Positions 28,496 through 30,073 of a DNA stretch of 40,282 bases are shown in pieces. Origin of the DNA: Bacteroidia bacterium (GTDB lineage: Bacteria > Bacteroidota > Bacteroidia > SpSt-205). Positions within the stretch are counted from its first letter, which is position 1. The number at the start of each line of letters is the position of its first letter. A program made the translations under genes and the position numbers. The stretch lies in the NCBI GenBank assembly GCA_025057135.1, contig JANWXY010000083.1:1-40282 (forward strand), in the 5' to 3' direction. The notes under the pieces were generated by a model that searched no databases, was not told where the DNA came from, and saw only the letters and a list, made by a program, of their open reading frames with translations.

Positions 28496-28663
28496 ATGCG
28501 TAAAATATGGCGAGCTTTTGATCCGCGCGCTTCACGCGTGAGCCATTTATCAGGAACCAGCCGCTTCAACCTACTTTTCATGAGACGCACAAACCTGCTA
28601 TCGCTGTCCCTATTTATTCTGGGCATTTTGGCGAAGCTCATCTGGAATTGGCTCTCCCGATAG
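28496..28663 (+). CDS. putative 55-residue single-pass membrane protein
   Basis: This short ORF starts at ATG 28496 and stops at TAG 28661-28663. It begins MRKIWRAFDPRASRVSHLSG, a basic N-terminal part, and has one strongly hydrophobic C-terminal helix (NLLSLSLFILGILAKLIWNWL) ending in SR; both parts are cited in short runs. It fills the only sizeable gap between pduO-type and cca genes, has an upstream TACCTTTG element, and its last 54 bases overlap the 3' end of the convergent cca gene. The amino acid order looks like a real small membrane protein, but I know no family for it. Confidence 0.45.
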   Translation: MRKIWRAFDPRASRVSHLSGTSRFNLLFMRRTNLLSLSLFILGILAKLIWNWLSR

Positions 28664-30073
28664 AATATACGGAGCGATTTTGTGCATATATGCCAGTGCA
28701 GCTTGATATTCGTTAGGGATGATACCATCTAGAATCGCTTGGCGTATAGCTTCCTTGATAGCACCGACAGTCGCCCCTGGGGGCAGCTGAAATGTACGCA
28801 TGATCTCCTCCCCCCGAATAGGCGGCTGAAAGCGAGCAAGACTATCTTTGATTTGTACCTCACGCACGCGCTGCATTATTTGATCAAAGTTTTTTAGAAA
28901 ACGCTGACGGCGATGAGGGTTTCGAGTCGTTACATCGCTACGACAGAGAAGGATAAGGTCCTCTAAATCTTCTCCTGCATCGGCGGCGAGTCTTCGGATA
29001 GCGCTATCGGTTACTCCCTCTTGGGCGAGTCCGATAGGGCGCCCGTGCATACGGACGAGCTTCTGCACATACCTGAGTCGCTCGTCCATGGGCAGGTGCA
29101 GCCGTTGAAATATATTCTTGACCATTTTAGCTCCGACCTCTTCATGCAAATGAAAAGTCCAGCCTAGCCGTTCATCAAATCGCTTTGTTTCGGGCTTGCC
29201 GATATCATGAAGAAGGGCTGCCCAGCGCAGCCAGAGAGACGCATCTGGACGCTGCGCCAAAAGCTGCTCTAAAACCTTGAGCGTGTGAGCAAAATTATCT
29301 TTGTGAGCGTAACCCTGCTGCATTTCTGTGCCGGCGAGAGCCACCACCTCAGGTAAGAAGTGCTCTAATAGCCCCGTGTCATATAAAAGTCGGAGCCCCC
29401 GTACAGGCGCAGGACTGAGGAGGATTTTGTGAAACTCCTCTACAATCCGCTCAGGCGAGACAATCTTCAGCCGAGAAGCCTCCCGACGAATACCCTTAGA
29501 GGTCATGGGATCAATCTGAAAGCCTAAACGCACCGCAAAGCGTATCGCTCGCAGCATTCGCAGAGGGTCATCACTAAATGTACGAAGCGGATCCGTCGGC
29601 GTACGAATGACCCGCCGAGCAAGGTCTTTGACTCCTCCAAAAGGGTCTAATAAACACGCTTTTTCTGCTGCATGTAGGCCTAAGTAAAGAGCGTTGATCG
29701 TAAAATCTCGCCGGATAAAGTCTGCTTCCAAAGGTGCAGGCTCTACGCTGGGATTGCGCGAATCAGGACTATAACTTTCTCGGCGGGAAGCTACGACTTC
29801 TACTTCGTATTTATCCCATTTCACCACCGCCACATAGAAACGGCGATATTCGGCGGCGATAGACGTGCCTAATCGTTCTGCCAGCTTTTCTGCAAAAAGC
29901 GTAGGATTACCGACGGTGACGACATCTATGGATGTGGAAAAACTATTTGTAAGAAAAAAGTCGCGTACCCAGCCTCCTACAATATAAGAGGGCTGAGCAA
30001 GCTGGTCAGCGACCGCCGATAAATGCGCTAAGATCGGCTCCGCTTCCCACAGGCTCAGGGGAAGCTGAGTCAT
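28610..30073 (-). CDS. cca: CCA-adding enzyme / poly(A) polymerase family with HD domain
   Basis: This 487-residue protein has the nucleotidyltransferase head with IVGGWVRD (31-38), then the position of the catalytic DxD reads S48-I49-D50, followed by VVTVG. VEVVASRRESYS, RRDFTINAL and DDPLRMLRAIRFA follow in the usual order. An HD phosphohydrolase domain (HTLKVLEQLL...LHDIGKPE) is at about 240-360. The family adds CCA to tRNA 3' ends or tails RNA. The first metal-binding Asp is replaced by Ser, so activity is in question. It starts 2 bases after the fumC stop and shares that operon. Known relatives in Bacteroides read DID at this site. Confidence 0.82.
   Translation of the reverse strand: MTQLPLSLWEAEPILAHLSAVADQLAQPSYIVGGWVRDFFLTNSFSTSIDVVTVGNPTLFAEKLAERLGTSIAAEYRRFYVAVVKWDKYEVEVVASRRESYSPDSRNPSVEPAPLEADFIRRDFTINALYLGLHAAEKACLLDPFGGVKDLARRVIRTPTDPLRTFSDDPLRMLRAIRFAVRLGFQIDPMTSKGIRREASRLKIVSPERIVEEFHKILLSPAPVRGLRLLYDTGLLEHFLPEVVALAGTEMQQGYAHKDNFAHTLKVLEQLLAQRPDASLWLRWAALLHDIGKPETKRFDERLGWTFHLHEEVGAKMVKNIFQRLHLPMDERLRYVQKLVRMHGRPIGLAQEGVTDSAIRRLAADAGEDLEDLILLCRSDVTTRNPHRRQRFLKNFDQIMQRVREVQIKDSLARFQPPIRGEEIMRTFQLPPGATVGAIKEAIRQAILDGIIPNEYQAALAYMHKIAPYILSGEPIPDELRQNAQNK

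Follow-up and report, generated by a model that had tools for sequence, protein, structure and literature searches.

A Class II tRNA Nucleotidyltransferase without the First Catalytic Aspartate as the Probable Sole CCA-Adding Enzyme in a Family of Bacteroidia

The CCA tRNA nucleotidyltransferase homologue of the window (the whole stretch of DNA that was analysed, 40,282 nucleotides) lacks the first aspartate of the catalytic DxD motif, and the same aspartate is missing in every genome of its taxonomic family in which the motif is covered. Judged from sequence comparison, the protein is probably still the only CCA-adding enzyme of the cell, with two catalytic carboxylates (Asp50 and Glu92) in a re-packed palm. 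This reading is supported because Asp50 and Glu92 are invariant in 57/57 aligned rows although the first Asp is lost in 11/11 family members, and because a single PF01743 gene occurs together with tRNA genes that do not encode CCA. The wider claim is that all tRNA 3' ends of the family are made by a Pol beta-superfamily enzyme without one carboxylate, which would have passed from DxD through ExD to (S/A/G)xD with a compensated palm and perhaps one tightly held metal; to this we give slightly better than even chances.

Results

The ORF begins with ATG, and GGWVRDFFLTNSFSTSIDVV within it holds S48-I49-D50, encoded by TCC ATA GAT on the minus strand (29932–29924), exactly as the earlier note had read this site. 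Pfam matches of the protein exceed the cut-offs for the head (PF01743, 91.3 bits, cut-off 23), the neck (PF12627, 76.2 bits, cut-off 22) and the HD domain (53 bits, cut-off 22), so that the head and neck homology of class II enzymes is present, and the top NCBIfam model is TIGR02692 (CCA tRNA nucleotidyltransferase) with 364 bits, which is below the curated equivalog cut-off of 438.8. The AlphaFold model (mean pLDDT 93.3, pTM 0.84) has the overall fold of the solved enzymes, its best matches being tRNA nucleotidyltransferases (3wfq_F with Z 34.6, rmsd 6.4 and 396 aligned residues; 5hc9_B with Z 29.3, rmsd 3.0 and 348 aligned residues). The class II motif A consists of GGxVRD and then DxD; GGWVRD is present and DxD reads S-I-D. 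The third carboxylate on strand 5 is in place, as are the RRD of motif B, for ribose recognition, and the E/DDxxR of motif D, for NTP selection. The protein is a class II tRNA nucleotidyltransferase by homology and fold, without the DxD signature, and because this signature fails despite the class II homology and fold, we regard it as a variant form of the class. The features are collected in Table 1.

Table 1. Features of the CCA tRNA nucleotidyltransferase homologue in the window.
Feature	Position	Strand	Length
CDS, homologue of class II (bacterial-type) CCA tRNA nucleotidyltransferases, with head, neck, HD body and tail	28610..30073	-	487 aa
PolyA_pol head domain PF01743, sole genome copy	29603..29986	-	
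Motif A part 1, GGWVRD, residues 33-38, intact	29960..29977	-	
Codon 48 TCC, Ser where the first catalytic Asp of DxD is expected	29930..29932	-	
Codon 50 GAT, second catalytic Asp, invariant in 57/57 rows	29924..29926	-	
E75, acid gained in 11/11 family members, not taken as a substitute ligand (aligned with Glu86 of AaS)	29849..29851	-	
Y80-V81 in place of Gly-Thr of 45/45 outgroup rows	29831..29836	-	
E92, corresponding to the third catalytic carboxylate (AaL Glu74), invariant in 57/57 rows	29798..29800	-	
Motif B RRD, residues 121-123, intact	29705..29713	-	
Motif C region DPFGGVKDL, residues 143-151, intact	29621..29647	-	
Motif D DDPLR, residues 168-172, which serves as amino-acid template for CTP/ATP, the same in 57/57 rows	29558..29572	-	
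Neck domain PF12627	29345..29524	-	
HD domain PF01966, residues 261-382, H289-D290 kept	28928..29293	-	

The CCA gene was searched for in 60 whole genomes and was found in 58. The taxonomic family of the window's genome is represented by 12 genomes, 11 of which cover the motif (in the remaining one, G001, the match starts at residue 245, at a contig end, and it was left out of the residue counts). The outgroup consists of 45 rows, i.e., 44 of 45 class-level matches (the contig-edge match of G054 being omitted) and the named locus L067; G030 and G046 gave no match and are absent from it. In the alignment, the first Asp is missing in 11/11 family genomes, where Ser (seven), Ala (three) or Gly (one) is found, whereas the outgroup has Asp in 44/45 rows and Glu in one (L014, from G047). 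The codons for S, A and G at position 48 differ within the family, and the same non-Asp residues occur in six publicly named records (L062–L066 and L068), titled Bacteroidia bacterium SKYB95, SKYB116, SKW77, KatS3mg025 and KatS3mg026, and Sphingobacterium sp. RSWP8. Records of this type we take to be of hot-spring origin. A sequencing or assembly error at codon 48 would have to explain three different residues, differing codons and 11/11 genomes including the six named records, with Asp seen in none of the 11, so base-calling error is ruled out for practical purposes and hardly deserves further weight. As a separate observation, the CCA gene of KatS3mg025 (G005:C1:1056009-1057464; L066, L080) is interrupted by a change of reading frame at about residues 392–403, with two matches in different frames, which is either an assembly indel or a real break.

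The members of the family form one clade in a quick tree (support 100), and its sister (support 91) is G012, the only genome from another family of the same order, which has Glu at column 48 (L012), i.e., ExD. The other ExD genome, G047, is placed nearby, and a DxD row (L022, from G029) sits between the two; therefore, Glu either arose twice or reverted. A route from Asp through Glu to Ala, Gly or Ser is plausible from the sequences, and Ala and Gly can be reached on it by single-base steps.

To describe what else changed, a column was called near-invariant when at least 44/45 outgroup rows share the residue, and lost when at most 1/11 family members retain it. The family keeps 28/35 such columns in the head, 21/22 in the neck, 34/36 in the HD body and 8/8 in the tail, and the eight lost positions are D48, G57, G80, T81, F93, G95, N215 and D269. 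Residues 48–96 hold six of these eight losses (6/12 columns, as against 2/89 elsewhere; Fisher p = 1.8e-5, which is descriptive, as it was counted post hoc from an alignment of related rows). Since the losses cluster there, the change, as far as the alignment tells, is focal and concerns the palm strands around the missing Asp. All 57 rows keep G33, G34, R37, D38, D50, E92, R121-R122-D123, D143, G147, D168-D169-P170-L171-R172 and H289-D290. The median pN/pS within the family (55 pairs; a crude counting estimate at high divergence) is 0.265 for the head, 0.214 for the neck, 0.160 for the HD body and 0.283 for the tail, and by this measure the head is under purifying selection, although weaker than that on the HD body. 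The NTP-selecting, ribose-binding and HD motifs are kept intact under purifying selection.

These data also bear on the proposal that the nucleotidyltransferase site is dead, that the protein serves in tRNA binding or as an HD phosphohydrolase, and that an unrecognised enzyme adds CCA. The loss of one catalytic Asp and of T81 could be taken in its favour, as could the retained HD residues and the HD body being the most conserved domain of the family, but DDPLR, RRD, Asp50 and Glu92 are invariant, the head is under purifying selection, and no other CCA-type enzyme was found although CCA is not encoded in the genes. A stand-alone HD phosphohydrolase would keep HD while the other motifs decay, and here the head and neck motifs are conserved too. 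Motif D, according to PMC11784652, is a template to which the incoming nucleotide (CTP or ATP) is hydrogen-bonded, and its invariance is not expected of a dead nucleotidyltransferase. We therefore regard a dead site as rather unlikely, and the HD-phosphohydrolase reading of the earlier note finds no support.

PMC3925840 lists Asp31, Asp33 and Glu74 as the catalytic residues of the Aquifex A-adding enzyme (AaL) and Asp58, Asp60 and Asp112 as those of the Aquifex CC-adding enzyme (AaS). In our alignment, S48 corresponds to Asp31/Asp58, D50 to Asp33/Asp60 and E92 to Glu74; therefore, two of the three carboxylates are left. This raises the alternative that the enzyme is active with another acid replacing the first Asp at the metal site. 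The only invariant acid gained in the palm of the family is E75 (11/11 members, as against V, I or F in 41/45 outgroup rows), and the clustered changes at 48, 57, 80, 81, 93 and 95 could re-position ligands. However, E75 aligns with Glu86 of AaS, an enzyme that retains the full Asp58-x-Asp60, and no acid is conserved in the motif A loop among the 11 family members. Moreover, Phe83 and Phe85 on the head sheet of AaS stack on the tRNA acceptor end (PMC3925840), and since the residue next to Phe85 should face the other side, E75 would be expected to point away from the active surface. By sequence, E75 was thus judged an unlikely replacement ligand, and a relocated ligand in general seems improbable to us. 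Of the possibilities raised before, the use of another acidic residue is accordingly disfavoured, and an altered active site is supported.

Whether the cell needs such an enzyme depends on its tRNA genes. CCA is encoded in 0/41 tRNA genes of the window's own genome (ARAGORN on the loci, 41 being the count of covariance-model matches) and in 3/44 of G005, which belongs to the same genus and consists of a single contig, the latter figure being roughly at chance level once C74 is fixed. Encoded CCA was thereby ruled out, and because the tRNA genes lack it, CCA addition is indispensable in the window's genome.

The search for a second enzyme took in nine family genomes, all of the 12 except G001, G007 and G008; the window's own genome is 98.1% complete in 94 contigs, and the family genomes are mostly fragmented. 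PF01743 is single-copy in the own genome and in each of the 9/9 family genomes, so that a split CC-/A-adding pair, with two class II genes per genome, was seen in none of them. Neither the archaeal-type CCA enzyme (PF09249) nor AbiEii/MenT-like proteins (PF08843) were found (0/9 each), and PF01909 proteins are patchy (5/9). On these grounds a second CCA-type enzyme was rejected, and the earlier idea that CCA addition rests on another gene, with a second nucleotidyltransferase to be looked for, was not borne out in the nine genomes. The checks proposed in the earlier note, on encoded CCA and on a second nucleotidyltransferase, thus proved decisive. The PF01909 matches are small NTP_transf_2 ORFs (G000:C77:4087-4302 in the own genome and others scattered in G004, G005, G009 and G011), which presumably resemble MNT-type nucleotidyltransferases.

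An observation apart concerns position 74 of the tRNA genes, the base directly following the discriminator, which is C in 38/41 genes of the own genome (L032–L061, L069–L078) and in 43/44 genes of G005 (L090–L119, L146–L158). Positions 75–76 are free in both genomes, with C75 being rare in the own genome (1/41), so that of the CCA end the genes specify no more than C74. Pattern counts across the class suggest that C74 is encoded there as well (e.g., 46 C-type vs. 29 other in G038, the latter, among the rows listed, mostly unlike tRNA genes). An exception is G037, a genome of 0.5 Mb (1 C-type vs. 27 other). A family-specific C74 linked to the lost Asp was for this reason dropped. In the literature searched, no report was found of C74 surviving 3' processing so that only CA would have to be added.

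Discussion

The activity of the protein and its mode of metal binding are what we infer from the above. In a two-carboxylate CCA enzyme, the metal ions would be bound by Asp50, the remaining Asp of DxD, and by Glu92 on strand 5, with help from the triphosphate and water. The first Asp has been exchanged for Ser, Ala or Gly, all of them small, and the adjoining palm strands would have been re-packed. The choice of NTP by motif D, ribose recognition by motif B and the motif C region would be the same as in relatives, as would the HD body and the two parts that bind tRNA, neck and tail. The likely route leads from DxD to ExD, as in the sister genome G012, and then to (S/A/G)xD in the ancestor of the family.

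Several points count against this reading. Ala or Gly, residues incapable of binding metal, stand at position 48 in 4/11 members; T81, present in 45/45 outgroup rows, is lost, which is readable as decay; and since the genomes are mostly fragmented, a second enzyme from a protein family outside those searched may exist. For the E. coli enzyme, both DxD aspartates are described as essential for catalysis, and an AxA double mutant serves as the inactive control (PMC11784652). In the one open-access library searched, which is not proof of absence, no paper on this variant was found, whether for single-Asp mutants, natural DxD-less class II enzymes or Pol beta carboxylate mutants.

Textbooks place the carboxylates of the Pol beta superfamily at the core of two-metal nucleotidyl transfer, and the DxD pair of CCA enzymes counts as essential. 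Here, the first carboxylate is absent across a whole family from an enzyme that is both essential and single-copy, and the graded forms DxD, ExD and (S/A/G)xD exist in living relatives, as a natural series for the role of each carboxylate and for the rebuilding of an essential active site. If the family does finish all its tRNAs with this single enzyme, the active site as textbooks describe it may be less strictly required than has been assumed. It is also a caution that the absence of DxD alone is a poor basis for calling a pseudoenzyme.

Comparison with Known Enzymes

Other Bacteroidia class II enzymes (TIGR02692-like, long form with HD body) share the domain order, motifs B, C and D and the equivalents of Asp50 and Glu92 with the window protein, at 44–51% identity, except for the divergent L145 at 30%. 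The window family differs from them in the first Asp of DxD (S, A or G), in GT replaced by YV at 80–81, in F93 replaced by V or I, and in G95 to A, G57 to P and N215 to H.

AaL (1vfg and 4wbz) is alignable in the head, with Glu74 equivalent to Glu92, and differs by its Asp31-x-Asp33, as the first position of the window protein is Ser48. The closest solved structures by sequence and fold are 3wfo–3wfs, which we infer to be AaS from the match of Asp58/Asp60 to the numbering in PMC3925840, and whose Glu86 corresponds to E75. According to that source, AaS has Asp58-x-Asp60 with Asp112 and a separate A-adding partner enzyme, whereas the window's genome has one gene and no first Asp. Archaeal class I CCA enzymes are of a different class from the window enzyme (PF09249 matches, as stated, in 0/9 family genomes), but they carry Glu at the first position (PMC3925840), which is a precedent for the ExD of G012 and G047.
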